Made by a program: the position numbers and the translations under genes. A stretch of 54,679 nucleotides of DNA, taken from a virus. The notes under the pieces are model-generated. The model saw only the letters and a list, made by a program, of their open reading frames with translations. It was not told where the DNA came from and ran no database searches. This document shows positions 1,139 to 53,805 of this stretch, piece by piece; positions within the stretch are counted from its first letter, which is position 1, and each line of letters starts with the position of its first letter. The stretch is taken from IMG/VR virus record IMGVR_UViG_3300030329_003092, positions 1 through 54,679 of that record. One strand, 5' to 3'.

Positions 1139-1140
1139 TT

Positions 1141-1418: not shown

Positions 1419-1447
1419 ACTATAACAAATATTTTATTAGTTGTCAA
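1419..1447 (-). promoter_or_regulatory. sigma70-type promoter for 1141-1386
   Basis: TTGACA (1442-1447), 17 bp, TATAGT (1419-1424) with extended TGT before it. The -35 encodes the C-terminal LDN of the upstream gene 1437-1730. Confidence 0.85.
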
Positions 1448-1730: not shown

Positions 1731-1948
1731 TATAGTTTTCCTCCGATCATTTTGTTCTCGTCGTAACCAATAACTTCCAAGTCCTCAGAAGGAACATAAA
1801 AGGAGTGAATGGTGCCATCCACCATAACTTGCCACATAGGATCGCGGTCTGGACCACTAGCCGCTTTCTTTTCTACAAGCAATCCTATCTTTCCTTTCCA
1901 CTCGGGGTAGAACTCTTCACTGAACTTCACTAAATCGCCTACTTTCAT
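1730..1948 (-). CDS. MKVGDLV-family small protein (72 aa)
   Basis: Starts MKVGDLVKFSEEFYPEWKG, then G-I-G-L-L-V, a WQVMVDG strand and a VPSEDLEVIGY end. The pattern of short beta strands (GDLV, GLLV, MWQVMV, LEVI) suggests an SH3-like barrel; this is inference. Its ATG overlaps the stop of 1945-2124 as ATGA, with GAGGT upstream. It is one of about 20 related genes in the window. Confidence 0.8.
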   Translation of the reverse strand: MKVGDLVKFSEEFYPEWKGKIGLLVEKKAASGPDRDPMWQVMVDGTIHSFYVPSEDLEVIGYDENKMIGGKL

Positions 1949-2124
1949 TTTACTACCTCAACAGACATACGCATTGCCCAAGACAGGGTGTTCTCTTTAA
2001 GCCAAAATACCTGAACCTCTCTTTTCAAACCATCAAAGCCGATCCGATCAGATTCGATCTTGCTTACAAATCCTGTGCCCTTCTCTCTAGGATCGCAGGA
2101 TTTTACTAAATCACCGATTTTCAT
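1945..2124 (-). CDS. MKVGDLV-family small protein (59 aa)
   Basis: Starts MKIGDLVKSCDPREKGTGFV, continues SKIESD and then VQVFWLKENTLSWAM, matching the family's G-x-V turn and its central hydrophobic strand with Trp. It is the first gene after promoter 2152-2180, its ATG is preceded by GAGAGAGAA, and its TGA overlaps the ATG of the next paralogue. Confidence 0.75.
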   Translation of the reverse strand: MKIGDLVKSCDPREKGTGFVSKIESDRIGFDGLKREVQVFWLKENTLSWAMRMSVEVVK

Positions 2125-13895: not shown

Positions 13896-13919
13896 CAATA
13901 CTCCAATGTTACTATGGCT

Positions 13920-16956: not shown

Positions 16957-18267
16957 TTATTTCTCTTGTACGAAGGAGTCTGCGCCATATATAATCATTG
17001 GTGCTGTTCTGTTCTTAATACACTCTTCATCGATAATCACCGATGTTGCGTCCTCCGAAGAAGGAACTTCGTACATTGTATTAAGCATAATCTTCTCAAG
17101 GATAGCTCGCAAGCCTCGTGCCCCTGTGCCTCTTTGTATGGCCTCTTGTGCGATACAGCGCATAGCTTCCTCTGTGAACTGAATATCAACGCCCTCATAT
17201 TCAAACAGTCTTTTGTATTGTTTCATGATAGCGTCTTTAGGTTCAGTCAAAATCTTAAGAAGGGCTGTTTCATCCAACTTTGTCAATGCAGCAATGATGG
17301 GTACGCGACCGATGAACTCTGGGATCAAACCGAACTTCACCAAGTCATTAGGCTCCGTCTCCAGCATATATTCTGTCTTGTCTTTGATGTTCTCCAAGAC
17401 CTTTCTTCGAGCAGCAAGGGACGAACTAAAGCCAATAGAACGCTGAGTGAACCTCTCTTCGATTAACTTCTCGATCCCGTCGAAAGCCCCTCCACAAATG
17501 AAAAGAATGTCTTTTGTGTCAAGCTCAAGGAACTCTTGGTTCGGATGCTTCCTTCCGCCTTTCGGAGGGATCTTTGCAATCGTCCCTTCAATAAGCTTAA
17601 GCAATGCTTGCTGTACACCTTCGCCCGAAACGTCTCGTGTAGTAGAAGCGTTTTCCGATTTACGAGCCAGCTTATCAATCTCGTCAACATAAACAATTCC
17701 CTTTGCAGCCAACTCAACATCATTGTCTGCGTTCTTAACAAGACTGAGGAGAATATTCTCTACGTCCTCGCCAACGTAGCCTGCCTCTGTTAGGCTTGTG
17801 GCGTCAGCAATCGCGAAGGGTACTCGAAGAAGTCTTGCCAATGTCTTAGCAAGCAGCGTCTTGCCCGAGCCAGTGGGGCCAAGAAGCAGTATGTTTGATT
17901 TATCAATCTCAGTAGTCTCTTCGACATCTGCGCTCTTTCTCCTTTGCGCCTTTGAGGCCGACTCATTAATTTGGATCCTCTTGTAGTGGTTGTAGACCGC
18001 AACTGATAAAACTTTCTTTGCTTCAGTCTGGCCGATAATATATTCGTCGAGCAATTCTTTAATCTCTTTCGGCTTCGGTAATTGCTCTAGTTGTTCAAGG
18101 CTCTCCTCTATTCCGTCCTCTTCCATAATGTCATTGCATATAGCAACACACTCATCGCAAATATATGTAGAGCTACCAGCTATTAATTTTTTAACCTCTG
18201 ACTGTAGCTTGCCGCAGAAGGAACAGCTTAGGTCCCTTGTCCGATCTCTTGTGTCATCATCGCTCAT
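16957..18267 (-). CDS. clpX: ATP-dependent unfoldase ClpX (436 aa)
   Basis: N-terminal C4 zinc-binding domain (CSFC ... CDEC, residues 15-40), Walker A GPTGSGKT (about 130), pore loop GYVGED, Walker [10 protein letters not shown] and Arg-rich sensor segments, all in ClpX order and at normal length. An IGF tripeptide (RSIGFSS) is where ClpX docks on ClpP. ClpX unfolds tagged proteins and feeds them to ClpP. A ClpP-like gene lies at 31359-32081. Phage-borne ClpX is uncommon; it could redirect proteolysis or act as a chaperone alone. Confidence 0.95.
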
Positions 18268-28372: not shown

Positions 28373-29941
28373 TTAAACCTCTACTATCGCAAAGTTAGTT
28401 GTGATTAAAGTTGATGCAACCGACACAGCATTCTGAAGGGCTGCTCTGGTTACCTTTGCTGGGTCAATGACTCCTTCCTCAAAAAGATCTACTACCTCGC
28501 CAGTATAGAAATTCATACCACAAGATCCTTCTTCAGATAAAACCTTCTCCACAACAACGTCTGGCGACATTCCTGCGTTCGACGCCATTTGTTTGATCGG
28601 GTCCTTAACAGCTTCCAGAACTATCTTAACGCCAAGTGACTGATCCTCATTAGGAGTTTCAACCTCTAGTCCTTGTGAGGCGCGTAGAAGCGTTACTCCA
28701 CCTCCAGCAACAATACCTTCTTGCTGTGCTGATCTGACTGCTTCTAGCGCGTCTTCAATGCGATGCTTTTTCTCAATCATCTCAACCTCTGACAACCCGC
28801 CTGCTCTAATAATAGCGACACCGCTCGCGAGTCGCGTGATTCTATCTTGGATTCTCTGTGCTTCGTACATGTTATCTGTCTGCTCTATCTCTACCTTAAG
28901 AGTATCGATTCGCTTTTCAACTTCGTCTAGGTCGCCCTTTCCGCCAATAAATGTTGTGTCTCTTTTGGTTACGTCGACACTGGAAACCATCCCTAGGTTC
29001 TCCAACCTAACGTCACTGAGTGAAACTCCGGAGGCTCTGTTGACAAAAGTCGCCCCAATTGAAGTGGCCAAATCCTTGAGTGTGCTTCTTCGTTCCTCGC
29101 CGTAAAGAGGAGCCTTAATGGCTGCGACCCTCATTGTACCTCGAATGGCGTTCATAATAAGGGCTGCAAGGGCCTGACCTTCAACGTTCTCAGCCACGAT
29201 CAACAGCGGCCTGTTCTCCCTTGATACAAGCTCTAGGGTAGGCAGGATCTGCTCTACGTTCTCAATAGACTCATCTGTTATGAGAACATAACAATCTTCA
29301 TAATGAACCGAACCTCTTCTCTCATTATTAATAAACTGAGGCGATATGTAACCCGATTCAACTCTGAAGCCTTCTACAAAGTCTACGCTGGTGTCGACGG
29401 ACCTTGCTTCTTCTACAGTGATTGACCCGTCCTTGCCCACTCTATCAACCGCCATGGCCACTAGCTTCCCTATCTTCTCGTCATTGTTTGCAGAAATAGT
29501 GGCAATGTGGGCAATGTCTTCTTCACTGGAGATTGGTTTTGAGTTGTCTTCAATTCTTTCCACTAGTGCCTGTACGGCTTTCTCCATTCCTCTCTTAAGT
29601 TCTACTGGGCTTGCACCTGCCTTAAGGTATCTTTGGGCTTGTGTCAGCACCGCTCTTGCCAAAACCGTTGCTGTTGTGGTACCATCGCCTGCGTCGTTGT
29701 TTGTTTCTTCGGAAGCTTGCTTGATAATCTGTGCACCAAGGTTCTCAAAGTCGTCCTCCAAGTCAACAAACTTAGCGATTGTAACTCCGTCCTTTGTAAT
29801 AATCGGGCTCTTTCCCTTCTGTTGTAAGATAACATTGCGGCCCTTTGGGCCTAGTGTGCTGGCTACATTATCAGCCAATTTGTTTGCACCTTTTAAAATC
29901 TTGTCTTGCAAGAAGGTGTTGTCACTATACTTCTTTGTCAT
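28373..29941 (-). CDS. groEL: Chaperonin GroEL (522 aa)
   Basis: The first 120 residues carry the ATP-binding signatures (LGPKGRNV near residue 30, DAGDGTTTATVLARA near 87), followed by the apical domain and the C-terminal equatorial part (EEGIVAGGGVTLLRA near 410). Full-length, but the usual Gly/Met-rich tail is absent and the protein ends IVEV. With the GroES at 42603-42881 it could fold large phage proteins without the host pair. Promoter 29969-29996. Confidence 0.96.
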   Translation of the reverse strand: MTKKYSDNTFLQDKILKGANKLADNVASTLGPKGRNVILQQKGKSPIITKDGVTIAKFVDLEDDFENLGAQIIKQASEETNNDAGDGTTTATVLARAVLTQAQRYLKAGASPVELKRGMEKAVQALVERIEDNSKPISSEEDIAHIATISANNDEKIGKLVAMAVDRVGKDGSITVEEARSVDTSVDFVEGFRVESGYISPQFINNERRGSVHYEDCYVLITDESIENVEQILPTLELVSRENRPLLIVAENVEGQALAALIMNAIRGTMRVAAIKAPLYGEERRSTLKDLATSIGATFVNRASGVSLSDVRLENLGMVSSVDVTKRDTTFIGGKGDLDEVEKRIDTLKVEIEQTDNMYEAQRIQDRITRLASGVAIIRAGGLSEVEMIEKKHRIEDALEAVRSAQQEGIVAGGGVTLLRASQGLEVETPNEDQSLGVKIVLEAVKDPIKQMASNAGMSPDVVVEKVLSEEGSCGMNFYTGEVVDLFEEGVIDPAKVTRAALQNAVSVASTLITTNFAIVEV

Positions 29942-35872: not shown

Positions 35873-38800
35873 TTATCCTACTAATCTTAAGTTATGCCTT
35901 ATTGATCGAGTTGAGAAGCCCCATTGTTCTTCCCAGTTCAATCGGCCAATATATGGTCGGTTAAGGTAAACCTTGTCCTTGTCTCTCACACCCCAACACT
36001 TGATAGAGGTTGAAATATTGTTAGAGTCAATAACTCGCAGAATCCAGTAATCCTTACCATTCTTGGTCTTTCTTTTTATTATCTCTCTCGGAATAAACCA
36101 CACGACCTCCAGATCTGGATCATACTCCGAGATCGGTGGAATGAAGTTGTCGTCCAACTTTTTACGTGTGCTGTCGTTTAACACCAAGTCCATTGGAAAC
36201 AAGCCTGTAAGCTCAGACAAGTTGTGGATATTCTCTTCGACAGAGAAGTCACCCTCCTCCATGTAAGCCTCGATAGACTCGTTGAGCTTCTTTTGGCTCT
36301 TTGGCCGGTCAGCAATTGTTGCTGCCCAGAAGTGTTTCATGCCCGTGAAGCGGCGATCCTTCAAAGAATCCAAAGCGCCGGCTCGACACATAACATCCAG
36401 AGCCTTCTTGTTCAGTTTGCTGTAAACGATTTCCTCGTTGAACAAAAGCTGCTCAATAGTGTTGAAAGGTCTATGATTTAATATCTGCTCAATAGCTGCC
36501 TCACCGAGGCCCTTGATCGAAGTCAGAGGCTGAATCAAAGTCTTTGCGTCGTCCGAGATCTCCCACGTTGTACCGGAAGTATTAATGTTCAATTTTTCAA
36601 TATTAAATCCAAAGGACTTGGCGATGTTGATTGCCTTCTCTTTTCGCTTCTCCGGCTCTTTGTCGAGAAACGCCGCCATCCACTCAGCGGGATAGTAATT
36701 AAGAAGATAGGCACACTGATAGCTAAGAACGCTGTAGCTGACAGCGTGGGACTTATTAAAGCCGTACCCTGAGAAGTACTCGAACGTTTGCCACAGTTCA
36801 TTTGCCTTTTGTTTCGTAAGTCCGTTATCGATACAACCTTCGACGAACTTGTCGAAGATCTTTTGCTTTTTCTTTTCATGATCTCCTGTACCTTTCTTTG
36901 TCAATAGTTTACGAAGAGTGTTGCCTTCGTCAAGCGTAATGTTCTTTCCAAGCTTGTGAGCCAGTAGAGCGATTTGCTCTTGGAAAATCAAGTAGCCATA
37001 AGTCTCAGCGGTAACCTCTTGGATTATCTCATGCCCATAACTAATGCCGGAGGGATTACTCTTAGCCTCCACATATGTTTGATCCACCTTGGCGCTCAGT
37101 GGGCCGGGGCGATAGATAGAAGTAATAGCTGAAATGTCAATGATATTCTTGGGTTTTGCTCGAACACAAAATTCTTGAGCGCCCTTCTCGCTGAACTGGA
37201 ATACGCCAGCCCACTTCCCCTTGTGGAAGATATTCTTATATACATTTTGATCTTCCAAGTCGATAACATCTGGGTGCAGGTGAGCGTTGTAATATTCTTT
37301 AACCTGTTCGAACGTGGGGTTCTTAACTCCATGATGTCGAATAAGAATATGACGCACTGCGTCTTCAATCATTCTCAAAGAAGCCAGACCTAAAATATCA
37401 AACTTAATAAAGCCAAGCGGCTCTAAGTGTCGAACATTCTGCCCCTCACTCCACGGGGTCTGTCTAACCCCTCCGCTATTGATCAGCGGCATCCACTTAT
37501 CGAGATCCTCACCGATCACAACTCCTCCAGCATGGCGCGAAACACTACGGACTTGGCCGAGCAAAGCTTCAACGTGAGTCTTGACATGGGGATATCTGTT
37601 TAGGAAGTTCTTAAGAGACTCTGAGTAGCTCATGACTTCTTCAAACGTTGGAGCATACACCCCAGCCTTAATCCCGTGAACCTTCTTTGCAATCGGCGTT
37701 GCTTCTTGAATCATACGGCCCGTAACCAAATTGACTTCCGAGAAAGGAATATCATAAAACTTAGATACGTCTTTGATAAGAGAGCGAAGCTGTAGTGTGT
37801 TATAGTTAGAAATCGGCACAACAGTCGAATCGCCCCATTCCTCGATCAGCATTTCTTTAAGCTGCATGGGCGAAGCAACATCGTAGTCGATATCTGGGTA
37901 ATCAACTGCGTCTCGTCGAAGGAATCGAGAAAACAAAAGACCGTATTTGATAGGGTCAATCTGAGTAATATCTAGAACATACGCAACGAGGGAGCCCGCA
38001 GCGGAACCTCGACCAGGGCCTGTAAGTTGAACCGAAGAGGCTTTATCTGCGACCGCTTCCATTGTTAGGAAGTACTTAGCAAATCCCCTGTCCTTAATAA
38101 CCTCAAGCTCAAGCTTAAGCCTGTCAACATACTCCGTATCCTGTGCAAGATCTTTGGATTTGAGACCAGCGAGACACTTTTCCGTCAACGCCTGAATGTC
38201 TGTTTTACCCTTTGGAACAACAAATTGAGGTAGACGAACGTTATCGTCTGGCATGAAGTCCTCGATGAGATCATGAGCGATATGGTGACTTCTCTTAATT
38301 GAGTCTAGAACCAGTTCATCGTCGTAATCAATCTTAGCTTCTTTAGAATATTTGTGATAAGATTCATACATCTGCTCGCCGTTCTTTGGATATAGCTCGT
38401 AGCCAATCTCTTCTACTCCACCAGGGAGGTCTGCGTCCATGTACTCTGGGAGGCCACCCTTGCCGAGCCATCCGATTCTCTTGTAAAGTTCTCGGTCCTT
38501 CCAGGCGTCTGGACTAGGATAGTGACTGTCAGCAGTAGAAATTAATGGTACGTCATGCTCGCGACAAACCTGAATGATATATTGGTTTAATAGATGCTGA
38601 TCGGGAATATTGTTCCACTGTAACTCTCCGAACCATCTTTCACCGAAGACATTCTTCATCCGGATCGTAGTTTCTCGCATAGCTTGGAGAACAGCTTCTT
38701 CACCGTTATCGCGATTGTCCCAATAATTACCAGCGTATACTCCACCAAGACAAGCACTGGCAGCGATAACACCGTCACTATGCCGAGACAGCAAATCATA

Positions 38801-39280
38801 ATCCATTCTAGGGTATCTATAAAAGTTTTCATCTCTATAACTCTCCGAAACTAGCTTAAATATGTTGTTCAAACCCGTTTGGTTCTGTGCCAGAAGAATT
38901 AGGTGTCTTCTCTGCTTGAGAATATCCTTAACCTTCCGCTTCGAAGCGGCCTCATCTTCAATACTTAAGTTAACATCTTTATCGATTTTCTTTTTCTGTT
39001 CTTTGGCTTTCTGATATTCTTCTCTCCAAAGATCCAAAGAAGGGAGGAAATAAGCTTCAACTCCAAAAATAGGTTTAAAATTCGTGCCGGCTGCTTTCAA
39101 CTTCCTCGCAAACAAAACTTGATACGGAAGCCCATTCATGTGACCATGGTCTGTTAGTGCAAGACCATCGCAACCGTTATCAAGTGCAAATTTCATATGG
39201 TCTTGTGGGTAACCAAGACCGTCGTTCAGGCTCAAACCACTATGGGCATGAAGCCCAACAAAAGGTATTTTCTTAGACAA
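35873..39280 (-). CDS. dnaE: DNA polymerase III alpha subunit (C family), TTG start (1135 aa)
   Basis: N-terminal PHP domain (HAHSGLSLNDG, LTDHGHM), a polymerase core with GPGRGSAAGSLVAYVL (about residue 420) and the acidic catalytic pair in VDYPDIDYDV (about 455), a fingers/thumb part with KSHAVSYS, helix-hairpin-helix (LTSIKGLGEAAIEQIL) and an OB fold near the C-terminus. It is the replicase. TTG is the only good start (GGAG 8 nt upstream). No proofreading exonuclease domain. Promoter 39308-39336. A second polymerase of family A lies at 52624-53805. Confidence 0.95.
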   Translation of the reverse strand: MSKKIPFVGLHAHSGLSLNDGLGYPQDHMKFALDNGCDGLALTDHGHMNGLPYQVLFARKLKAAGTNFKPIFGVEAYFLPSLDLWREEYQKAKEQKKKIDKDVNLSIEDEAASKRKVKDILKQRRHLILLAQNQTGLNNIFKLVSESYRDENFYRYPRMDYDLLSRHSDGVIAASACLGGVYAGNYWDNRDNGEEAVLQAMRETTIRMKNVFGERWFGELQWNNIPDQHLLNQYIIQVCREHDVPLISTADSHYPSPDAWKDRELYKRIGWLGKGGLPEYMDADLPGGVEEIGYELYPKNGEQMYESYHKYSKEAKIDYDDELVLDSIKRSHHIAHDLIEDFMPDDNVRLPQFVVPKGKTDIQALTEKCLAGLKSKDLAQDTEYVDRLKLELEVIKDRGFAKYFLTMEAVADKASSVQLTGPGRGSAAGSLVAYVLDITQIDPIKYGLLFSRFLRRDAVDYPDIDYDVASPMQLKEMLIEEWGDSTVVPISNYNTLQLRSLIKDVSKFYDIPFSEVNLVTGRMIQEATPIAKKVHGIKAGVYAPTFEEVMSYSESLKNFLNRYPHVKTHVEALLGQVRSVSRHAGGVVIGEDLDKWMPLINSGGVRQTPWSEGQNVRHLEPLGFIKFDILGLASLRMIEDAVRHILIRHHGVKNPTFEQVKEYYNAHLHPDVIDLEDQNVYKNIFHKGKWAGVFQFSEKGAQEFCVRAKPKNIIDISAITSIYRPGPLSAKVDQTYVEAKSNPSGISYGHEIIQEVTAETYGYLIFQEQIALLAHKLGKNITLDEGNTLRKLLTKKGTGDHEKKKQKIFDKFVEGCIDNGLTKQKANELWQTFEYFSGYGFNKSHAVSYSVLSYQCAYLLNYYPAEWMAAFLDKEPEKRKEKAINIAKSFGFNIEKLNINTSGTTWEISDDAKTLIQPLTSIKGLGEAAIEQILNHRPFNTIEQLLFNEEIVYSKLNKKALDVMCRAGALDSLKDRRFTGMKHFWAATIADRPKSQKKLNESIEAYMEEGDFSVEENIHNLSELTGLFPMDLVLNDSTRKKLDDNFIPPISEYDPDLEVVWFIPREIIKRKTKNGKDYWILRVIDSNNISTSIKCWGVRDKDKVYLNRPYIGRLNWEEQWGFSTRSIRHNLRLVG

Positions 39281-43192: not shown

Positions 43193-45619
43193 TTATCCAC
43201 ACTTTGAGAAACCACAACTGGCACAAACAACGCACCCGTCTTGGTAAACTAGTTCCGCACTTTCACAACATTGTTGTTCCAGCACAACGGAGCCAACTTT
43301 TTCTCCATTTTGAATGTAATTTTTAAGAATTCGAGCAACGCAGCGAGCAAAGCTGAACATGTCACTGTCCTTGTCTTTCTGTAGCTGCTCTACTAGGAAG
43401 CTTGGCTTTGCGCCATGGCGAAGTGATAACGAAATCATTCTTGTGAACGCTGAATTGTTAGGATTGTCGAAAACTTTTACGACGTCTCGAACAACCATTG
43501 CGTCACCGTTGTTGCCGACTCTTAAATTATATTGATTGTTTCTTGTCTTATACTTGACCTTTGTGAGTTCCCCCTTTGTAAAGCTCTTGGGGATCTCGAT
43601 CAAGTTAGATAGCCCGCCAAGAACTTCATAGGGGCGACCCTCTAAGAGGCCCACAAGGACGGTCCACTTCTCGCCTTTAATAGTGGTGTGATGGATATCA
43701 CACTCAAGAAGTTCGGGCCTCTGAGTACCCTCGCTAGCGGCAAAGGAACTCTTGTTTTTCTCGCTATCAGTAACAAGCACTCCTGTCCGACAACCATCAA
43801 CATAGACAGTTATACCCTTCAGCCCAAGCTTCCACCCAAGCAAGTATAGCTCAGAAACAACCTCTGGCTTTGTACCTGCTGGTAAATTAATAGTGGAGCT
43901 TATTGAGTGATCTACGTTTCTTTGAATTGCAGATTGAACCGAAACTCTTCTTTTCCAGTCGATCTTATCGCTCGTTACAAAAAAGTCTGGCAACTCTTTA
44001 TCTGGGTTTAATGTCTTCCACTCGTTAACATTATGGTGAAAGACCTCATACTCAAGCCATTTGTCGCCAAGCTCATCAACGAAGTCTGGTGTTACGTCCA
44101 CTTCATTGTGCGAAAGTTTTCTTCGTCTTTTATAAGAATTCCTAAACACAGGCTCTAGGCCGGAGCTAGTCTGTGATAAAATAGAAACCGAACCTGTTGG
44201 TGCATTGGTGAGAATAGAAATGTTTCTCCTGCCATGAGTTGCCATAAGAGCTTGGATGGTTTCAGGGAGTCTACTAATATAACTATTTTCTTTCTCTAGG
44301 TCCCAATCAAATATTGGGAAAGCGCCTCTTTCCTTTGCCAAGTTAACACTTTCAAGATACGCTGCGTCTCGCAAACAAGAGTAAATTTCTTCAATTACTC
44401 TCTCCGCCTCCTCAGAATCATATCTAAGATTCAGGCGAGCGACGGCATCCGCAAGGCCATGAGTTCCCAGGCCCGTACGTCGACCACTTCTACAGGCGTC
44501 AAGGAGCTTTGTCCACATTTCTTTCTCGTCTTCTGTGTCACAGACAGACAAAATATTCTCTAATTTCTCTACTTCCAGTTCTACCAAGTTGTCAGAAAGT
44601 CTCATTGCAACACTCGCAATGTTCTTAAAGTGTTCAAAGTCAAACTCTGCTTCGCCAGTAAAACTATTCTTTACAAAGTTCTTCAGGTTCACAGAAATTA
44701 ATCTACATGAATCGTATGCAGAGAGAGGAATCTCACCACAAGGGTTGGTTGTCAAAGTCTTGAATCCCTGATCCTTGTAGCAGTGGGCGGGAAGATTGTT
44801 AACTATATTATCCCACATCATCAAGCCGGGCTCGGCTGTGCTTGTAGCAGACTCAACAATCGTATCCCAAAGCTCTCGGGCGTCGATCTCTTTTGTGAAA
44901 GTTGGGTTATCGGAGCCAACTGGGAAATGAAGATTAAAAGTGCTGCCTGTTTCCACTGCTTCCATAAAGTCGTCACTAATTTTTATAGAAACGTTCGCAC
45001 CAGTGACCTTTGTAAGATCCCTCTTCATTGTTGCAAAATTTTCAATGTCCGGGTGGCGTACGTCCATTGTAATCATTAGTGCGCCACGTCGCCCATTTTG
45101 TCCGATCATTCGACAGATATATGAATACAAATCAGCAAATGACCATGCGCCCGTTGTAGAGCCTGCTGAATTGTTAACTGTCGCACCTTCAGGTCTGAGA
45201 TCAGATATATCGATACCTACACCGCAACGCCTTTTAAACAAGTTTGCCAACTCCTTTCCGCTATCCATAATCGAGGATATACTATCTGAAGGTGATTCCA
45301 CGACGACACAGTTAGAAAGTGAAACATTTACATGATTATTTCCAATACCCATCATTGGTGAGCCCTGCGGGACAACATACTTAAAGTTTTTTAGTACCTC
45401 ATAAATTGATTCTTCCGATAGCGCCCTTGGGCCACCGAACTTGTCTTCAATTCTTGCGAACTCTTTCGCTAAACGACGGTGCATATCATCCGGGGTCTCC
45501 TCTAAGAAGCGCCCCTTCTTGTCCTTAAGGGCATATTTTGTGATCCAGACATTAGTTGCCAGATCGTCGCCACCAAAATATTCTAAGGTAGCTTTCTCAA
45601 CGTTCTTTCTCTTAGCCAT
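43193..45619 (-). CDS. nrdJ: Adenosylcobalamin-dependent ribonucleotide reductase, class II (808 aa)
   Basis: NPCGEIPLSAYDSCRLISVN (about residue 285) with the active-site Cys, NNSAGSTTGAWSFADLYSYI (about 150), PTGSVSILSQTSSG (about 470) and the C-terminal Cys-rich end (CVVCASCGFSKCG) are class II features. No separate small subunit gene is seen. It makes deoxynucleotides without oxygen, needing host B12. AAGGAG before the ATG; it overlaps the DnaB gene by 8 nt. Confidence 0.93.
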   Translation of the reverse strand: MAKRKNVEKATLEYFGGDDLATNVWITKYALKDKKGRFLEETPDDMHRRLAKEFARIEDKFGGPRALSEESIYEVLKNFKYVVPQGSPMMGIGNNHVNVSLSNCVVVESPSDSISSIMDSGKELANLFKRRCGVGIDISDLRPEGATVNNSAGSTTGAWSFADLYSYICRMIGQNGRRGALMITMDVRHPDIENFATMKRDLTKVTGANVSIKISDDFMEAVETGSTFNLHFPVGSDNPTFTKEIDARELWDTIVESATSTAEPGLMMWDNIVNNLPAHCYKDQGFKTLTTNPCGEIPLSAYDSCRLISVNLKNFVKNSFTGEAEFDFEHFKNIASVAMRLSDNLVELEVEKLENILSVCDTEDEKEMWTKLLDACRSGRRTGLGTHGLADAVARLNLRYDSEEAERVIEEIYSCLRDAAYLESVNLAKERGAFPIFDWDLEKENSYISRLPETIQALMATHGRRNISILTNAPTGSVSILSQTSSGLEPVFRNSYKRRRKLSHNEVDVTPDFVDELGDKWLEYEVFHHNVNEWKTLNPDKELPDFFVTSDKIDWKRRVSVQSAIQRNVDHSISSTINLPAGTKPEVVSELYLLGWKLGLKGITVYVDGCRTGVLVTDSEKNKSSFAASEGTQRPELLECDIHHTTIKGEKWTVLVGLLEGRPYEVLGGLSNLIEIPKSFTKGELTKVKYKTRNNQYNLRVGNNGDAMVVRDVVKVFDNPNNSAFTRMISLSLRHGAKPSFLVEQLQKDKDSDMFSFARCVARILKNYIQNGEKVGSVVLEQQCCESAELVYQDGCVVCASCGFSKCG

Positions 45620-46991
45620 TATCTGCTCCTTTTTTAGTAAATTTCTTATACTTCTTCTCTAGTTCTTGTTTATAGTCTTTTGCTGATTTTACCACATTTT
45701 CAACTGGAATTTCATCTAAATGTCTATGAACTTCGATAAAAACATTACTTGTTCTCATTGTTATTGGGAACACTACTCCATCCGGACCATTTCTGTTCTT
45801 CGCAACAAAAATTCGTCCCGAGTCTGTTCTCTTATCTTCCACGGTTCTTGACAGAGTAAAAATAAAATCTGCAACAAAACACTTGTTAAACGCTTCAGAG
45901 ATCGACTCCATTGTGATAACTTCTGCGTTTAAGCCGCTCCTATTTGTTTGTGAGGCTGTCCATATTGGGCAGTCATGTTCTTGAGCAATTGCTCTTAAGT
46001 CTTCGTAGATTGTTTCCAAGTCGTGTCTCTTCTCTTTATATATCACCGTGGGCTTCAAAAGGTCAGCATAATCTACAATTATCATCCCAGGTTTTATGTC
46101 TCTTTGATACAACCTTTCGAGATGATTACGGATTGTTTTTGGCGAAGCAGATTTTGTTGGATACTCTTTAATTATTAATTTACCCTTCACATCTTTAATT
46201 TGCTCATAAATGTCGTCTTTAAAGTTATATGTTTGAGACAAAGGAACTCTTGTGATACAACTATCATACCTTGTGGCTATTACTGTACTCCCCAGTTCAA
46301 GAGTGTAATGCACAACAGTCTCACCTTTCAAAAGAGCTTGGGCTCCCAAGTGCACGAGAGCCATTGATTTACCACTACCTGTGCTGGCGATAGTGACGCC
46401 AAGTTCGCCCTTACCCAATCCTCCTCGACTAATCTCGTCAATGTAATCCCACCCAGTGGTAACTGGGTTTCTACTTTTGATCATAAACCTTTCTTCAAAG
46501 TCATCAATATATTCATACCCAAAGTCATTCTCGGATCCGAGTTTAAGTGCCTCGTTAATAATCTTGGAGATCTCGTCAAACGAAGACTTTTGGATAAGTC
46601 TTGCGCTTTTAATCATGGCTTCTTTAAGCTTTTGCTTCCTACAGAAATCAAGAGCAGTGTGCTTAATATAATCTTCGTCTTCAGGATTCTCGTCAGAACT
46701 CATCACTCTAACGAAAAAGTCTCGTGTTGTCTTTTGCGTTGCTTGGTCCTCCTCATCAAGCTCTGCACGAAGGATTGTGATCATTGCGTCTTTAGAAGGG
46801 TGAATCTTAAACTTCTCTTTGTACTCCATGATCTTTCGAACAAAAACTCGGAGGTGTCTTAGTTCCAGAAAATCAATATCAAGAACCTCCATTATCTGAT
46901 CGCAAAAAGCACGATCTTTGAGAATTAACTCACAAAGCTTTTCTTGAAAGTTCTTGCCAAATTTTGAGAAATTTGCCTGCGTTTCATGCAT
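45612..46991 (-). CDS. dnaB: DnaB-type replicative helicase (459 aa)
   Basis: The C-terminal RecA-like core has GWDYIDEISRGGLGKGELGV (about residue 190), Walker A ASTGSGKS (about 212), VHYTLELG and MIIVDYADLL with Walker B Asp. The N-terminal half is helical, as in phage gp41-type helicases. ATG at 46991 (MHETQANFSK) chosen over an upstream GTG; AGGT lies 7 nt upstream. It unwinds DNA at the fork. Cotranscribed with the lipoprotein and RNR. Confidence 0.92.
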   Translation of the reverse strand: MHETQANFSKFGKNFQEKLCELILKDRAFCDQIMEVLDIDFLELRHLRVFVRKIMEYKEKFKIHPSKDAMITILRAELDEEDQATQKTTRDFFVRVMSSDENPEDEDYIKHTALDFCRKQKLKEAMIKSARLIQKSSFDEISKIINEALKLGSENDFGYEYIDDFEERFMIKSRNPVTTGWDYIDEISRGGLGKGELGVTIASTGSGKSMALVHLGAQALLKGETVVHYTLELGSTVIATRYDSCITRVPLSQTYNFKDDIYEQIKDVKGKLIIKEYPTKSASPKTIRNHLERLYQRDIKPGMIIVDYADLLKPTVIYKEKRHDLETIYEDLRAIAQEHDCPIWTASQTNRSGLNAEVITMESISEAFNKCFVADFIFTLSRTVEDKRTDSGRIFVAKNRNGPDGVVFPITMRTSNVFIEVHRHLDEIPVENVVKSAKDYKQELEKKYKKFTKKGADNG

Positions 46992-46999
46992 CTTAATAC

Positions 47000-47287
47000 C
47001 TACCAGCACTCAAGCTCAATTTGTTCCCACCAGCAACCATAAGAATCCCAGTACTCGCACCATGTCTCTTCGCAGAGCCACCCATCATAGTCATAATATT
47101 CCCAAATACAGCACTGATCTGGGTAGCAGTACGTTGGGTTTCCCAAATCCCAATATAATTGTTCGACGTTATCACAAACTGGCTCTAACAAATACGGGCC
47201 TGTTGGTTCTGGAACTCCAGTATCTACGACCAAACAGCTTGATAAAAAGACGCCTGTTAAAAATATAAATAAACTTTTTCTTTTCAT
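47000..47287 (-). CDS. Secreted lipoprotein rich in Cys, Trp and Tyr (95 aa)
   Basis: The N-terminus MKRKSLFIFLTGVFLSSCLV is a lipobox signal peptide (FLSSC, Cys at residue 18), so the mature protein would be anchored to the cell envelope. The rest has 10 Cys, 10 Trp and 9 Tyr in 77 residues (CYPDQCCIWEYYDYDGW). It overlaps the GTG alternative of dnaB but ends before its ATG. Such phage lipoproteins may block receptors (superinfection exclusion); speculative. Confidence 0.72.
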   Translation of the reverse strand: MKRKSLFIFLTGVFLSSCLVVDTGVPEPTGPYLLEPVCDNVEQLYWDLGNPTYCYPDQCCIWEYYDYDGWLCEETWCEYWDSYGCWWEQIELECW

Positions 47288-47303
47288 TATCTCTCCTTTC
47301 TAG

Positions 47304-47377
47304 TACACCCACCGAGGATTGAACTCGGGACCTTCCGCTTATAAGACGGATGCTCTAACCGACTGAGCTATGGGTGT
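47304..47377 (-). tRNA. tRNA-Ile (anticodon TAT)
   Basis: A full cloverleaf on the minus strand: 7-bp acceptor ACACCCA/TGGGTGT, D stem GCTC/GAGC, anticodon stem TCCGT/GCGGA with loop CTTATAA (anticodon 47341-47343), 5-nt variable region, T stem CCGAG/CTCGG with TTCAATC. No CCA is encoded. UAU reads AUA, a rare codon in many bacteria but frequent in this AT-rich phage. It begins about 10 nt below promoter 47387-47415. Confidence 0.93.
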
Positions 47378-47386: not shown

Positions 47387-47415
47387 ATAGTAGCAAATTT
47401 TCTTCTGTTTGTCAA
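47387..47415 (-). promoter_or_regulatory. Promoter of tRNA-Ile and the dnaB operon
   Basis: TTGACA (47410-47415), 17 bp, TACTAT (47387-47392) with extended TGC. The TGA of the exonuclease is inside the -35. Confidence 0.65.
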
Positions 47416-48446
47416 CAGTTTTCGAAAACAATGTGTTGGCAAACTTGCCACAAGGTAGACCAGTCATAAACCCCGAACCCATCTTCGTTCATCATTCTCA
47501 ACACTTCCGTTTTATTGAATGTGCAGTCAAAATTATAAAGAGCTTGGCGAATGTCGCTTTTTGCTTTGATAGGCAGGTTCGGAACATACAACTGCATAAT
47601 CTTGTAGTTGTCTCTTACTACATTTGCGTGCTCCAAGATATTTGAATATAATTTAAGCTTTGAGTCTAAATTCTCTTTACAAAAATCGAACAAGTCATCA
47701 AGAGTGCATGTTGTGTCTTCTGCCAAAAATGGCATTTTCTTAGCCAAAGTCTTGAGGCCAACTCCCGGCACCCCAGGAAGGTTATCGCTCTTATCTCCTG
47801 CGATTGCACGAGCGAGCGCCATGTTTGTAGGGTGAATGCCAAACTTCTCTACGATCTTGTTTTTATTAAGAATTTCCTTTTGAATCGGCCTCAGAAGAAT
47901 CGTCGTCTCGTCACAAAGTTGAAAGAAATCCTTGTCACTTGAAACAATAACCTTCTGGTGTTGCTTCATTTGCGGCTCTTGTACAATGTGTGCGATAACG
48001 TCATCCGCTTCCACCCCTTCAATCATTACCTGACTTATTGGCATGTTGTTCAAATAAGAAACTAATCTGGTTTGTTGCCAGATCTTATTCTCAAGCTCTT
48101 CATTTTCCGTCAACATACCTTGAATCCCGCGATTTAAACGGATTGGCTTTCGACCGTCTTTATATTCTTTATTGACAATCTTCTTTCTTTTAGATCCGCC
48201 TGGACCATCCCAGGCTACGATAACCATATCGGGCTTGATTTCCCTAACAAGCTTCTGTAGGATCTTTAGGAATCCCTTGACACCGCCAATTGGCTGTCCA
48301 TTTGTCGACATGCTTGGGTCGACAATATAAGCTCGGAAGTAGGCGTTCAACGCATCAACAATAAGGTACCTCTTTGATTTCCTTTCCGGCACCTTTACTT
48401 CTTTACTTTCTTTATACTTTTGAAGTAAACTCTTTGGGTCGCTCAT
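47412..48446 (-). CDS. 5'-3' exonuclease / flap endonuclease (344 aa)
   Basis: The N-terminal LIVDALNAYFRAYI (about residue 29), VIVAWDGPGGSKRKK (about 75), MIEGVEADDVIAHIV (about 141), IVSSDKDFFQL (about 166) and GDKSDNLPGVPGVGLKTLAK (about 214) are the conserved metal and helix-hairpin-helix blocks of T4 RNase H / PolI 5'-nuclease. It removes RNA primers and flaps. Its own promoter is 48493-48521. No polymerase is fused to it, which fits the separate PolA-like gene. Confidence 0.94.
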   Translation of the reverse strand: MSDPKSLLQKYKESKEVKVPERKSKRYLIVDALNAYFRAYIVDPSMSTNGQPIGGVKGFLKILQKLVREIKPDMVIVAWDGPGGSKRKKIVNKEYKDGRKPIRLNRGIQGMLTENEELENKIWQQTRLVSYLNNMPISQVMIEGVEADDVIAHIVQEPQMKQHQKVIVSSDKDFFQLCDETTILLRPIQKEILNKNKIVEKFGIHPTNMALARAIAGDKSDNLPGVPGVGLKTLAKKMPFLAEDTTCTLDDLFDFCKENLDSKLKLYSNILEHANVVRDNYKIMQLYVPNLPIKAKSDIRQALYNFDCTFNKTEVLRMMNEDGFGVYDWSTLWQVCQHIVFENC

Positions 48447-48458: not shown

Positions 48459-48695
48459 CTAAATTTCTAAAAACCATTTTACGTGTGGGACTATTATATC
48501 TAAAAATATTTCATATGTCAAGCTATTTTGTTTTTTTTCTATAGAATCTAGACGGCGGCTCCAAGAGCAATAAAACTTCTTATCATTTATCATCAAGGAT
48601 TCTCTTTGCTGCCCTTCCTCATCCTCAAACCAATATACCTGATAGTTGTTTCCTGGGAACTTTTTTTCTAAAATCTCTATGAAGTGTTCATACAT
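48459..48695 (-). CDS. Hypothetical protein (78 aa)
   Basis: Start at MYEHFIEILEKKFPGNNYQV with GGGAGAAG upstream; a longer frame would cover the neighbouring gene. It continues YWFEDEEGQQRESLMINDKK and ends KWFLEI. A small alpha/beta protein, no motif recognised. Overlaps the fatty-acid-hydroxylase-type gene by 8 nt, and its 3' part holds the exonuclease promoter. Confidence 0.66.
   Translation of the reverse strand: MYEHFIEILEKKFPGNNYQVYWFEDEEGQQRESLMINDKKFYCSWSRRLDSIEKKQNSLTYEIFLDIIVPHVKWFLEI
48493..48521 (-). promoter_or_regulatory. Consensus promoter of the exonuclease gene
   Basis: TTGACA (48516-48521), 17 bp, TATAAT (48493-48498), both perfect, inside the C-terminal codons of 48459-48695. 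Confidence 0.78.
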
Positions 48696-49149
48696 TGCTC
48701 TTCTCCCTGGTACCAAATAAATAATCGGCAAAAGGAAAAAGAATACACCAATTACTATCTTGATTCTTTCCCATGTGATGGTCCCAGTGCCAAGGCAGGT
48801 GCTTTTTGCCCCATAAAATATTTGCGTGAGAGTATCTGTGTACCCCATAATATAACGCGGCGTAAGCAACTAATGTAAAAAATATAACAGGGCTGAAAAA
48901 ATATACTGGAATATGAGCGATTAACAAAAGGGATAAGGCGAAAATCTCTTTATAATAGATTTTACTGTCATGATTTTTATCTTTTCGACATGCCTTGTGG
49001 TGTTCTCCCCAATGAAAACTCCAAAAACTTTGCTTGTTCTTACCAATATTGTGTAAGATATATTTATGTATCGCCCACTCATATACGTTGGCAACCAACA
49101 CACTCATAACTATTTGAGCCACAACTGTCAATTTAAAAACATCTTCCAA
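48688..49149 (-). CDS. Fatty-acid-hydroxylase-superfamily membrane protein (153 aa)
   Basis: Histidine boxes in order: HKYILH (28-33, HX4H), HWGEHH (46-51, HX3HH), HRYSH (104-108, HX3H) and HLPWHWDHH (117-125, HX3H then HX2HH). Between them are hydrophobic spans (residues 7-24 and about 66-103). This is the di-iron motif set of the fatty-acid hydroxylase / sterol desaturase / beta-carotene hydroxylase group. The reaction would be hydroxylation or desaturation of a membrane lipid; the substrate is unknown. It may act with the hotdog thioesterase to alter the host membrane. Overlaps its neighbours on both sides by 8 and 22 nt. Confidence 0.78.
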   Translation of the reverse strand: MEDVFKLTVVAQIVMSVLVANVYEWAIHKYILHNIGKNKQSFWSFHWGEHHKACRKDKNHDSKIYYKEIFALSLLLIAHIPVYFFSPVIFFTLVAYAALYYGVHRYSHANILWGKKHLPWHWDHHMGKNQDSNWCILFPFADYLFGTREKSNV

Positions 49150-49640
49150 TCTGGATGCTGTTCTCTGGAGGGGTACAGCCCATAATAGATATCATAGATT
49201 GGATTTTGCGGTTTATTTAACAACCTCATGTTTGTTTCTGACAGTAGTCTGTTATTCTTTTTGTTGTTGCACGAATAGCACGCAGTGATGCAGTTCTCGT
49301 AATCCGTTGGGCCACCGCGAGATTTAGGGATGACATGATCGATTGTTAGAGAACTTCTTCTAGTCTCTCCACAATACTGGCATGTAAACCGGTCTCTCTT
49401 TTTTATCAATAGTTTGGAAAACTTTAAAGGCCCCTTCCGATAATACCTTACATGATTTTTTAGTCTCAAAGTTGAAGGCAATATTATCTTACCATCAATC
49501 GAACGAATAATGGTGTCTTCCCAGTGGGATACGATATCAACCTTTTCTCTGCTCATTAATCTAAGTGCCCGTTCCCATGTGACAAATCGCAATGCGCGAT
49601 AGTCGGAGTTAAGCAAAAGCACTTTTCGATTGTCAATCAT
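49128..49640 (-). CDS. HNH endonuclease (170 aa)
   Basis: The C-terminal half has CQYCGETRRSSLTIDHVIPK, SRGGPTDYENCITACYSCNN: two CxxC zinc pairs and the HNH core (DH ... N ... N). The N-terminal 90 residues fit the bacterial HNH type that starts VLLLNSDYRALRFVTWERAL. It is a standalone HNH nuclease of the size found in phages as homing or packaging-related enzymes. Its role here is not clear. Confidence 0.88.
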   Translation of the reverse strand: MIDNRKVLLLNSDYRALRFVTWERALRLMSREKVDIVSHWEDTIIRSIDGKIILPSTLRLKNHVRYYRKGPLKFSKLLIKKRDRFTCQYCGETRRSSLTIDHVIPKSRGGPTDYENCITACYSCNNKKNNRLLSETNMRLLNKPQNPIYDIYYGLYPSREQHPDWKMFLN

Positions 49641-49666: not shown

Positions 49667-50776
49667 CTATTCTTCCTTTTCTATATCATAAAATTCTGTT
49701 GCGTCTCCGTCGCGCTTGTCGAATTTAAGGATGACTTCCTCATCCATAATCTCCAACACTCTGTTACGAAACACCTCTTCTTTGATCTTCTCCTTCCAAC
49801 GAGAAGGTTGGAACTTCTCTGTCGTTCCATTGCCCATGTCCATTGTATACCATGAACCAGAAGAGGTAAGATACTGAGATCCTCTAATAGCTTCGAACCA
49901 ACTCTCTTCGTCTTGAACTCCGATCTCATCTCCCCAAAGAATCTTAAACGTGCACTGTCGACCCTGTGTACCAAAGCGACTCTTCTTGAGTGTCGCCTTG
50001 ACCTCAGAGCCCACACGGAAACCATGGTCGTCCATTACGTAAGAAGCCTTAGATTTGCGCCCTGTGAGCCAAACCCGCAAAGAGTAGGCATAATGCATAG
50101 CTTTGCCTCCCGGCGTCATATAGGGCTCTACAAGCGCCTGAGAGGGGCTTCTAGTAATATTAGTCTTGAGTTGGTTTAAAACCAAGAAGGTTGACTGAGT
50201 ATTGGCGATAGGTACCGTCAGTTTGCTCATACCTTTTGCCAAGATACGAGCCTTCACAGCCATTGACGACTGTGGATTGAAGTCGCCGTCTAGGTCGCTG
50301 ATTGCTGGTGTCAACGCAAGGCTGTCCCAGATGAAAAGCATTTGACTTTCATTGCTGCCCAGTAGGTCTTCAATTGTTTCTAAAACAAACTCAACGCTCT
50401 GAGCCTGTACATAAAGAAGTCTGTCAAGATCACAACCGGCTTTCTGTAAGAAGCCAGGATCGATTGCAGATTCTGAATCAAAATAAATAACGTCAATGCC
50501 CATTTTCTGTGCATTGGCTGCGACTTGTGCGGCCATATAAGATTTACCTGACGCTTCAAGTCCTGCGATTTCTACTACTTTACCCACGGGAATGCCGGCC
50601 AATTGGCCTCGACAAATAATAGAATCCAACCATCGGGATCCCGTAGGGATCCATTCCTTAACCTCTGTAGGGTTTTGCTCAGTTAGATTGTGAGCCACGG
50701 AGATACCAGCCTTCTTATTAATGAGGTTTCTCATATCTCCAATTGACAGTCGCCCTGCCTTTGATTTCTTAGCCAT
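49667..50776 (-). CDS. uvsX: RecA/UvsX-type recombinase (369 aa)
   Basis: Walker A AGLEASGKSYMAAQ (about residue 72), the second strand VIYFDSESAID (about 97), Walker B MLFIWDSLAL (about 150) and a loop-2 region near NTQSTFLVLNQLKTNITR (about 205) identify a RecA-fold strand-exchange protein. Length matches T4 UvsX and RecA. It supports recombination-dependent replication and repair with the SSB encoded just upstream. A terminator separates the two genes. Confidence 0.93.
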   Translation of the reverse strand: MAKKSKAGRLSIGDMRNLINKKAGISVAHNLTEQNPTEVKEWIPTGSRWLDSIICRGQLAGIPVGKVVEIAGLEASGKSYMAAQVAANAQKMGIDVIYFDSESAIDPGFLQKAGCDLDRLLYVQAQSVEFVLETIEDLLGSNESQMLFIWDSLALTPAISDLDGDFNPQSSMAVKARILAKGMSKLTVPIANTQSTFLVLNQLKTNITRSPSQALVEPYMTPGGKAMHYAYSLRVWLTGRKSKASYVMDDHGFRVGSEVKATLKKSRFGTQGRQCTFKILWGDEIGVQDEESWFEAIRGSQYLTSSGSWYTMDMGNGTTEKFQPSRWKEKIKEEVFRNRVLEIMDEEVILKFDKRDGDATEFYDIEKEE

Positions 50777-50844: not shown

Positions 50845-51612
50845 TTAACTACCCATTAGATCCTTGAATGCAGAATCTACGTCATTCACTGCGGTGTCGC
50901 CACCGGAGGTCTTTCCACCATACTTCTCTGTTTCGGTTGATTTATTTTCAGCAGAGGAGTTGCTGGAAAGGAAGTTGTCAAGAATTGTCTGCACTTCCTC
51001 TACGCTTTTGCGCTCGAAGAGTCCGTTAAAGTCTGGAATATTATCCATCAACTCTCGACACTTGTCTGGGCCGTCCTCGCACATAGCTGAAGAACGTCGA
51101 CGTGGTGTAATGGTTGTTTGCGGGAACTGTGCTCCTGCTGGCTTACCATATTTAATCACCAAGTCAGTTCCAGTTTCTGGATCCGTAATGTCTCCATACT
51201 CTGGATTTAGAACTAAGTTAAGCAACTCTTCATAAGCGAGTTTGCCATAACCCCAAACACGAACACCCAAATGTTCCTCACCGCGTACAATTACTGGAGA
51301 GAAGAAGCGTTGTCGAGGAAGAAGGCTTTTCGCCATCTTAATACTATCCTCTGTGCCTTCATCGAAAAGTTCACGAATGAAATCGGTGATTGCATCGTCT
51401 TCTCCAAAGTTCTTCTTTGGGCTCAAGAATGGAGGGGAATCCCCTACATTATAATGAAACCAAAAGTCGCGGAACGGGTCGCCGTCAGGACTTGGAACGA
51501 GCCGGATAACCGTCTCCCCTTCCTTTGGCTTCCAGAAAACCTGTGAGTTGTTGCCTCCCCGATTGTTAAGCTCGGTGAGTCGTTTTTGGATCTTGTCCAT
51601 ATTAATAGCCAT
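50845..51612 (-). CDS. gp32-like single-stranded DNA-binding protein (255 aa)
   Basis: The start MAINMDKIQKRLTELNNRGG, then FWKPKEGETVIRLVPSPDGD (about residue 28) and PFRDFWFHYNVGDSPPFLSP follow the N-terminal layout of phage gp32-type SSBs. It ends in an acidic, Ser-rich tail (about 215-255), as expected for a C-terminal protein-interaction arm. It coats ssDNA at the fork. AAGGAG before the ATG; promoter 51681-51709 gives a 62-nt leader. Confidence 0.88.
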   Translation of the reverse strand: MAINMDKIQKRLTELNNRGGNNSQVFWKPKEGETVIRLVPSPDGDPFRDFWFHYNVGDSPPFLSPKKNFGEDDAITDFIRELFDEGTEDSIKMAKSLLPRQRFFSPVIVRGEEHLGVRVWGYGKLAYEELLNLVLNPEYGDITDPETGTDLVIKYGKPAGAQFPQTTITPRRRSSAMCEDGPDKCRELMDNIPDFNGLFERKSVEEVQTILDNFLSSNSSAENKSTETEKYGGKTSGGDTAVNDVDSAFKDLMGS

Positions 51613-51680: not shown

Positions 51681-51709
51681 ACTATAGCAAACATTAATAT
51701 ATTTGTCAA
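51681..51709 (-). promoter_or_regulatory. Promoter of the SSB gene
   Basis: TTGACA (51704-51709), 17 bp, TATAGT (51681-51686) with extended TGC. The TGA of the tubulin-like gene is inside the -35. Confidence 0.85.
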
Positions 51710-52581
51710 GCAAATAATTCATCAATGATTTCAGTATTAGTTTTATATCTTTGGATCACTGGTGTGTTGCAACAAACATACGCATAGTCGTTGTCGTAAC
51801 TTGTTGAATATACACCGTAACTTGTTTTAGTTTCTTCAGTCAAAGAGCTTCTTACTTGTTCTTTAATGTTTGCAAATAACTTTCCGTCTTCCTCAAGACG
51901 GTCTTTATTTATAGCATAATAATACCGCAAATCTTTAATTTTGTAAAGCGGAAAAAACATTTTGTGTTCTCCGGTATCGACGTCTGATATCCCAAAAGTT
52001 GAGATCCTGTGTGTTTCGTGCGGCTCGTGAAAAGTGTTGACCACCGAGTCAATGTGATTGTAGACATTAATCATATGAAAGGTCGAAACTATCATCTCAT
52101 TAAGGCGATCAAAGTACCCGACCACTGGTAGGTCGCCCATAATCTTTTCTACACTCGTATTGTCAACAAGCCACAGTCTTTTAATCGCAGCAGAACGGGC
52201 GTATTCTTGTAGTACGTTGAATACAAGCCACTCCTGCCTCTTCTTTGTTTCTGGTAATAACTGGACGTCTGGTCGGATATATAGTACGCTAACTTCACAA
52301 TGTTTGATATTTTCTAATATCTTCAAAGCTGCGCCAGATATGTCACCACTACCGCCGAGAACAAAAAGAATTTCCCCGGTGCACCCTTTAAAAAAGTTCT
52401 TCATATTGGGACACTCTGATTCATATCTTTCGGGTGTGCTTTGTCGTGGCATGTCAAATATGCCATTCTTTTTCAACCCCTTCAAGCCAACATCAATCTT
52501 GTAAGTTTTATACTGATCGTGCTGTGCAAACTGATCGGTAATATTACAGCCAGCCTGTCCTAATCCGACGATAGTGTCCAT
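51706..52581 (-). CDS. Divergent tubulin/FtsZ-like protein (291 aa)
   Basis: The N-terminus MDTIVGLGQAGCNITDQFAQ matches the first strand and T1 phosphate loop of FtsZ/tubulin (GVGGAGxN). About residue 74, FVLGGSGDISGAALKILEN resembles the tubulin signature (GGGTGTG) that binds the GTP phosphates. The rest is divergent, with no clear T7 catalytic loop and no C-terminal tail. Known PhuZ phage tubulins are larger and centre phage nuclei. This one may be a filament former or a GTP sensor. GGAAGAG precedes the ATG. It lies between SSB and a PolA-like gene. Confidence 0.65.
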   Translation of the reverse strand: MDTIVGLGQAGCNITDQFAQHDQYKTYKIDVGLKGLKKNGIFDMPRQSTPERYESECPNMKNFFKGCTGEILFVLGGSGDISGAALKILENIKHCEVSVLYIRPDVQLLPETKKRQEWLVFNVLQEYARSAAIKRLWLVDNTSVEKIMGDLPVVGYFDRLNEMIVSTFHMINVYNHIDSVVNTFHEPHETHRISTFGISDVDTGEHKMFFPLYKIKDLRYYYAINKDRLEEDGKLFANIKEQVRSSLTEETKTSYGVYSTSYDNDYAYVCCNTPVIQRYKTNTEIIDELFA

Positions 52582-52623: not shown

Positions 52624-53805
52624 TCATATTTTCAACTCCTTAAGTTCTCCATAGTTTTTTCCAGCAGATAGATTAACCTTAAATTTACCTAGGTCTGTAT
52701 CACCAAAAACTCTTTTAATTTCTGGTATAATATATCTATCTTCGTGATGTAAATCTATCACCAAGCTGTCGTGAATACAGAATGCAATATTCGATTTAGT
52801 ATTTTTCAAAAGTTTATTAATCTCTACCACTCTCTTTAAAAATAAATCACTGGTTGTACTCTGAATTATATAGTTCACCGCATGGTGGTCGTCTGCCTCT
52901 ATCTCTCTTCCAAACACTGTCTTAATCTTATTACCGTCCCAGTACTTATCCTTCACAAAGTCCCTGTCGTAATGCTGGTTGGCAACTGATCTTGCCTCTG
53001 GATTGTAGAGCCAAGCGAAGATGCTCTTCTTTGCCTCCTCCCTGGTTGTACCTTTAAAAAGATTCTCCATGTTCCATTCATGAATATCTTGTTCTGGTTG
53101 TTCTTTCTCACTCAAAGCAAGCAACGTTCTAAGCTCTGCTGAGTTGAAGTCTAACTCTAGGAACCAATCATTGGTTGGTTCTATAACCTTTCTGTATTCT
53201 TTCGCCATTGTCAGGATGGGAAAGCTATTCTTCTTTGTGGTTAGTCGACCGGTCTTGGTGCCAAACAGATTATAGTCAATATAAGGGTTTGACCTAGAAA
53301 GCTTCTCTTTCCAGTTTCTGGTCTTAAACTGATACAACTTGCTCTTGATATTGTCAAAGTTGACCTTTAGCTTGCGAGCCCTAATCTCTGAAAGAATTTT
53401 CTCAACAGCCAAAAGAAAGCTGTAATTTGAAGGGCGCTCATAATTCTCAAGAACGTGTTTAGTAATTTTAGTCTTAATCTCACAATAGTCTCGTAGAAAA
53501 TTTTCCGGGACAAGATCGTAAAAACAGTTTTCATTTAAATCTACCTTTGCTTCTGTTAATGCTCTATAAAATGATTTCAACCTATCAAACGCTTCTAGCC
53601 ACTCGTCTTCAAGGGAGGGGGGACACACCTCCGTCAAGCCCTTTCCAAGACAATACAAAGATGCATACTCAATATCCTTGTCCTCCAGAAAATTAGCGTA
53701 ACCCCAGGTTTTCGTTAGGTTCTCTGGTATGTTTGAATACTGTAATTGTCCGTCGATATAAACACCGACGCACTCGTTCTTTATATCAAGTGCTTGAAAA
53801 TACAA
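52624..53805 (-). CDS. Short family A DNA polymerase, TTG start (393 aa)
   Basis: Family A motifs: A (LELDFNSAELRTLLAL, about residue 218), B (TREEAKKSIFAWLYNPEARS, about 253) and C (IAFCIHDSLVIDLH, about 345), plus the T-x-x-G-R-L region (FGTKTGRLTT, about 184). Only the polymerase palm and fingers fit; there is no 3'-5' exonuclease and the N-terminus is short (about 170 residues). An in-frame TAG lies two codons before the TTG, so no longer N-terminus is encoded in frame here. No Shine-Dalgarno is visible. It may fill gaps behind the DnaE replicase, or be the C-part of a split polymerase. Confidence 0.82.
   Translation of the reverse strand: MYFQALDIKNECVGVYIDGQLQYSNIPENLTKTWGYANFLEDKDIEYASLYCLGKGLTEVCPPSLEDEWLEAFDRLKSFYRALTEAKVDLNENCFYDLVPENFLRDYCEIKTKITKHVLENYERPSNYSFLLAVEKILSEIRARKLKVNFDNIKSKLYQFKTRNWKEKLSRSNPYIDYNLFGTKTGRLTTKKNSFPILTMAKEYRKVIEPTNDWFLELDFNSAELRTLLALSEKEQPEQDIHEWNMENLFKGTTREEAKKSIFAWLYNPEARSVANQHYDRDFVKDKYWDGNKIKTVFGREIEADDHHAVNYIIQSTTSDLFLKRVVEINKLLKNTKSNIAFCIHDSLVIDLHHEDRYIIPEIKRVFGDTDLGKFKVNLSAGKNYGELKELKI

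Follow-up and report, generated by a model that had tools for sequence, protein, structure and literature searches.

Described phage tubulins fall into a few groups, namely PhuZ, TubZ and occasional FtsZ-like proteins. Two distinct FtsZ/tubulin representatives have been reported in jumbo phages (PMC7824862). In phiKZ TubZ, tubulin and FtsZ alike, the protofilament interface comprises the T7 loop, the base of helix H8 and strand S9, the catalytic aspartate being located in T7, and the C-terminal tail contributes to the polymerization of the Pseudomonas phage proteins (PMC3678025). Divergent FtsZ-tubulin families have also been described in Bacteria and Archaea (FtsZl1 and FtsZl2), with roles inferred from the genome context and a function in membrane remodeling proposed (PMC2875224). 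The phage gene analyzed here, TUB1, likewise belongs to a divergent family whose role is read from its genome context. It is located in a window of 54,679 nucleotides, the whole stretch analyzed (IMG/VR record IMGVR_UViG_3300030329_003092), to which all coordinates below refer unless another contig is named:

51706-52581, minus strand: TUB1, a 291-aa protein of divergent tubulin/FtsZ fold.

This open reading frame (ORF) is a real gene with a tubulin/FtsZ fold. It starts with ATG, preceded 5 nt upstream by a Shine-Dalgarno-like GGAAGAG, and it is under purifying selection, with a dN/dS of approximately 0.06-0.13 for the pairs with unsaturated synonymous change. The gene is present as a single copy in each of 11 records, in which a second copy was looked for and not found. 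TUB1 matched none of the Pfam, PHROG, NCBIfam or PADLOC models; weak matches to PHROG_24038 (E 0.006) were obtained with six members of the family. No relative was found by tblastn in 50,697 phage records, the queries being the window protein and two divergent relatives, and none was confirmed in GTDB contigs scanned with two short peptide patterns, whereas at least 593 relatives were confirmed in IMG/VR by a scan with a 13-member profile. TUB1 thus represents a large and apparently undescribed family. A literature search, whose scope did not extend to the PhuZ diversity survey of Sun et al. 2025, returned no paper describing it.

The AlphaFold2 model of TUB1, built with 60 relatives, reached a pLDDT of 92.9 and a pTM of 0.90, and the predicted structure is a two-domain tubulin fold over the full length of the protein. 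Foldseek comparison with the PDB gave 484 matches below 1e-3; the 50 matches listed are all FtsZ or TubZ, aligned over more than 300 columns with query TM values of 0.61-0.74 and a best E of 8e-13, the values reaching 0.72 for bacterial and archaeal FtsZ and covering the entire range for TubZ of Bacillus. In the viral library BFVD, the best fold matches are annotated as phage FtsZ or cell division proteins, with 9-14% identity, and no named PhuZ appears among the matches listed. The earlier note, written from the sequence alone, had proposed a tubulin/FtsZ-like protein and had named a fold other than tubulin or Rossmann as one outcome that would count against it; the predicted structure and its PDB matches agree with the proposal, and no such fold emerged.

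In contrast, TUB1 is below the detection level of Pfam, NCBIfam and profile-profile comparison with FtsZ. It gave no significant match to PF00091 or to the FtsZ profile (TIGR00065), and its hhalign score against FtsZ, 17.6, falls within those of column-permuted controls (mean 15.1, maximum 23.2), so that a proof of homology to FtsZ at the sequence level failed. The highest profile-profile score among the families compared was obtained with PhuZ (34.7, the best of 100 column-permuted controls being 26.2), a moderate link confined to the N-terminal half. Since sequence profiles alone are insufficient, the homology claim is mainly structure-based. Weak matches to TrkA_N and saccharopine dehydrogenase were obtained for a few members (E approximately 0.01); the identity of a plain Rossmann/NAD-binding protein is rejected because the full-length model matches FtsZ and TubZ. 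The UvrC, ADP-ribosyltransferase and RNase matches of a PDB profile search (E above 0.5) are attributed to chance. TUB1 is a new family inside the known tubulin/FtsZ superfamily.

TUB1 keeps most of the predicted nucleotide pocket, which involves the following features:

52543-52572, minus strand: T1 loop, residues 4-13, IVGLGQAGCN, with a strand at 3-7 and a helix at 8-18 in the model.
52333-52356, minus strand: T4 loop, residues 76-83, GGSGDISG, between the strand 70-76 and the helix 80-91.
52159-52161, minus strand: N141, at the end of strand S6 (T6), a candidate guanine contact.
52099-52101, minus strand: N161 in H7 (helix 156-175 in the model), a candidate guanine contact.

Both glycine-rich loops typical of the superfamily are present, and ordered as in FtsZ. 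Conservation was counted in 60 relatives with 42-74% identity. The T1 loop is near-invariant (G6 59/60, G8 60/60, G11 59/60, C12 58/60), while T4 is cut down to G77 and G79 (54/60 each), with S82 conserved in 52/60 and the full GGGTGTG motif absent. Together with the low dN/dS, this conservation shows that the loops are not a chance occurrence. D30 is conserved in 56 of the 60 relatives, and N141 and N161 in 59 each. By their position and by topology, both asparagines are candidate equivalents of those contacting guanine in T6 and H7 of tubulin and FtsZ. The earlier note had recognized both loops and described them as being in the right order and spacing; the order is confirmed, whereas the spacing is only approximate, the T1-T4 distance being shorter than in E. 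coli FtsZ by approximately 18 residues, because the T2-H2-T3 region is reduced.

Whereas the pocket is mostly kept, the family as a whole lacks the T7 catalytic acids, H8 and a long C-terminal tail. The region where the first two are expected is the following:

52006-52056, minus strand: expected T7 and H8 region, residues 176-192, coil except for two strand residues, without a conserved acid pair.

None of 182 TUB1 segments scanned contains NxDxxD. An acid pair spaced as [DE]xx[DE] is present in 85 of these segments, in columns that are not fixed. Between 176 and 192, the share of members with an acidic residue does not exceed 68% in any column, a level reached by residues 178 and 189; some hydrolytic activity, weak or displaced, is thus possible. 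Between H7 and S7, where 17 residues precede the next long strand, the model contains no helix H8. The chain stops shortly past the last strand, and the C-terminal tails in the same segments have 0-14 residues with a mean net charge of -0.1, unlike the acidic tail of PhuZ. That the 291 residues include no obvious T7 had been noted earlier for the window protein; the loss extends to the family as a whole. TUB1 consequently differs from FtsZ, being approximately 90 residues shorter than the E. coli protein (383 aa) and without T7 NxDxxD, H8, C-terminal linker or tail; from TubZ of Bacillus, being approximately 100 residues shorter, without the long C-terminal helix and tail, and located in a replication module; and from PhuZ of the nucleus-forming phages, a phage tubulin as well, by the absence of the T7 DxxD, H8 and the acidic tail. 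With the pocket mostly kept and the loop and helix driving hydrolysis lost, TUB1 seems to form a branch of the tubulin family that had not been described before.

Conservation in TUB1 is highest in two stretches at the ends of helices:

52192-52209, minus strand: QEYARS, residues 125-130 at the C-terminal end of H5, with only A128 varying.
52057-52077, minus strand: HMINVYN, residues 169-175 at the C-terminal end of H7 (H169 60/60, M170 59/60, N172 57/60).

Since such helix ends lie opposite the nucleotide in a Rossmann-type domain, the two stretches probably form, judging from the topology of the model, a new or replacement lower face.

The genes surrounding TUB1 in the window encode a replication module:

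52624-53805, minus strand: family-A DNA polymerase, PolA-like, 393 aa (phrog_17, E 3.9e-20), directly upstream of TUB1.
50845-51612, minus strand: single-strand DNA binding protein, SSB (phrog_1192, E 7.8e-24), downstream of TUB1.
49667-50776, minus strand: UvsX/RecA-like recombinase (phrog_97, E 3.1e-53).
47412-48446, minus strand: 5'-3' exonuclease, FEN-like (phrog_107, E 2.7e-33).
45612-47009, minus strand: DnaB-like replicative helicase (phrog_19, E 5e-76).
43193-45619, minus strand: ribonucleotide reductase large subunit (phrog_84, E 1.4e-112), end of the conserved module.

The PHROG matches bear out the SSB, recombinase and polymerase that the earlier note had placed beside the gene, and its location in a replication region is strengthened by the fixed order of the module across relatives. 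The order PolA-TUB1-SSB-UvsX-FEN-DnaB was found on one strand in approximately 120 loci, wherever the flank was present. TUB1 is downstream of PolA in 73 of the 75 PolA relatives forming the best-matching part of the scan, a sample that does not bound the extent of the clade, and the remaining two contigs break off just past PolA. In 100 of 164 loci, the stop of PolA and the start of TUB1 overlap; in approximately 28 others (L001, L007, L021 among them), the two genes are separated by 61-400 nt, often by approximately 305. The pairwise identities of TUB1 are correlated with those of PolA (r 0.59), a value reached by none of 1000 permutations. These data place TUB1 among the core genes of the replication module in a large marine phage clade without cultured members, and its neighborhood suggests, rather than proves, a role in replication. 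The combination of lost activation elements with a fixed place in this module makes TUB1 unusual.

A related module, with its genes in the same order, exists in the isolated Microcystis phage Mel-JY01 and Flavobacterium immuto phages and in LR756508, a 484-kb metagenomic phage genome, with other genes between PolA and SSB; the ORFs found there, read by eye, have no resemblance to TUB1. TUB1 at this position is thus not needed for such replisomes in general.

A fatty-acid hydroxylase-like gene (48688-49149, minus strand) and an HNH endonuclease gene (49128-49640, minus strand) are inserted between the UvsX and exonuclease genes of the window; in the loci read, the former was present only in the two close relatives L021 and L022, the latter in these and in L002/L020. 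A tRNA-Ile with anticodon TAT (47303-47377, minus strand) lies between the exonuclease and helicase genes. In addition to the family-A polymerase, the phage has a DNA polymerase III alpha-type polymerase with a PHP domain (1135 aa, 35873-39280, minus strand).

Taken together, these data lead us to propose, with a probability of roughly 40%, that TUB1 is a replisome-linked GTP-binding scaffold or switch and not a treadmilling filament. We infer its nucleotide binding, partners and assembly state as follows. The protein would bind GTP (or dGTP) in the retained pocket, but would be unable to perform the canonical cycle, where hydrolysis in each subunit is triggered by the T7 loop of the preceding one; it would thus act as a nucleotide-bound scaffold or switch of the phage replisome or replication focus, making its contacts through the conserved ends of H5 and H7. 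By extension, and a little more tentatively, TUB1 may found a class of tubulin-fold replisome parts, GTP-bound and without T7 or H8, with any assembly mediated by a new interface, which would organize viral DNA replication as a core gene throughout the clade.

The first alternative is a cytoskeletal filament: TUB1 would polymerize with GTP like PhuZ or TubZ and position the replicating genome or the capsids, with an altered longitudinal interface. The shared fold, the retained pocket and the profile link to PhuZ (34.7 against a control maximum of 26.2), the best found at the sequence level, are in agreement with it, and the conserved lower face (QEYARS and HMINVYN) could replace the lost subunit interface. 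We nevertheless consider a filament unlikely, as no named PhuZ is among the fold matches listed in BFVD and the missing T7 acids, H8 and C-terminal tail are the very elements assigned to the protofilament interface or to polymerization (PMC3678025). The case of a PhuZ-like spindle serving a phage nucleus was considered separately. The Phikzvirus chimallin model, which recovered phiKZ as the positive control, had no match in 15 records, although the narrowness of this model and possible gaps in the records limit this result. Moreover, the replication genes of nucleus-forming phages differ from those of the TUB1 phages, whose module is of the PolA/UvsX/DnaB type. Without a Phikzvirus-type chimallin in these records, and given the different replication genes, such a spindle is unlikely. 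The earlier note had also set TUB1 apart from PhuZ, in agreement with the BFVD matches listed; PhuZ proteins were, by contrast, recovered with TUB2, a second tubulin described below.

Blocking of FtsZ is a common phage strategy, and a protein with the tubulin fold and a nucleotide face but no T7 face is a possible one-sided capping mimic. TUB1 would in that case imitate one end of FtsZ and cap or poison the host filaments, thereby arresting division of the infected cell. Host-attack genes, however, are usually found among the variable early genes, whereas TUB1 has a strict place in the replication module beside PolA and SSB and an extreme conservation of its lower face, and we regard this function as improbable. 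Slightly less probable again is a sensor of the nucleotide pool, or an allosteric regulator of the polymerase or of ribonucleotide reductase, acting without self-assembly. The module that TUB1 shares with PolA, SSB, DnaB and ribonucleotide reductase and the retention of the pocket with loss of the activation elements would suit it, but we know of no tubulin relative acting in this way.

A search of the long records with Tubulin PF00091 revealed a second tubulin in one TUB1 phage (E 3e-6):

Contig IMGVR_UViG_3300025131_009739 (locus L217), 1030-2121, minus strand: TUB2, 364 aa, with relatives at loci L219-L298.

Like TUB1, it is a tubulin-like protein of marine phages, and the two co-occur in some of them. 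Unlike TUB1, TUB2 matches PF00091, keeps GGGGGTG (T4) and a DxxD (D249/D252) matched by eye to the T7 of FtsZ, shows a helix at the place of H8 in its model, and adjoins a sigma-factor-like ORF. At least 107 relatives were found in IMG/VR and, by tblastn, none in the phage records; the best BFVD match has 19% identity. TUB1 is present in 6 of 15 TUB2 records, whereas among 21 records chosen for TUB1, several of them of 150-204 kb, a single one contained a detectable TUB2, so that TUB1 is independent of TUB2 and a universal pair is rejected. A mixed polymer of the two in some phages, as with alpha- and beta-tubulin, would be allowed by the co-occurrence in those six records and by the canonical T4 and T7 acids of TUB2, but is very improbable, and not the general role of TUB1, given the single shared record among 21 and the distance between the genes.

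TUB1 matters for several reasons. The gene is single-copy and apparently universal in its clade; its family counts hundreds of members from environmental samples, had no match among the phage records searched, and has lost the part of the fold on which well-studied members rely to couple hydrolysis to assembly. TUB1 would be a test of whether DNA replication can be served by the tubulin fold in the absence of a dynamic filament. For this abundant clade of uncultured marine phages, it also provides a concrete marker.

Elsewhere in the window, a phage GroEL (522 aa, 28373-29941, minus strand) has best phage matches of approximately 45% identity, the Flavobacterium immuto phages included. A ClpX-like ATPase with a zinc finger (16957-18267, minus strand) and two D12-class adenine methyltransferases (10609-11622 and 12870-13898, both minus strand) are also encoded.
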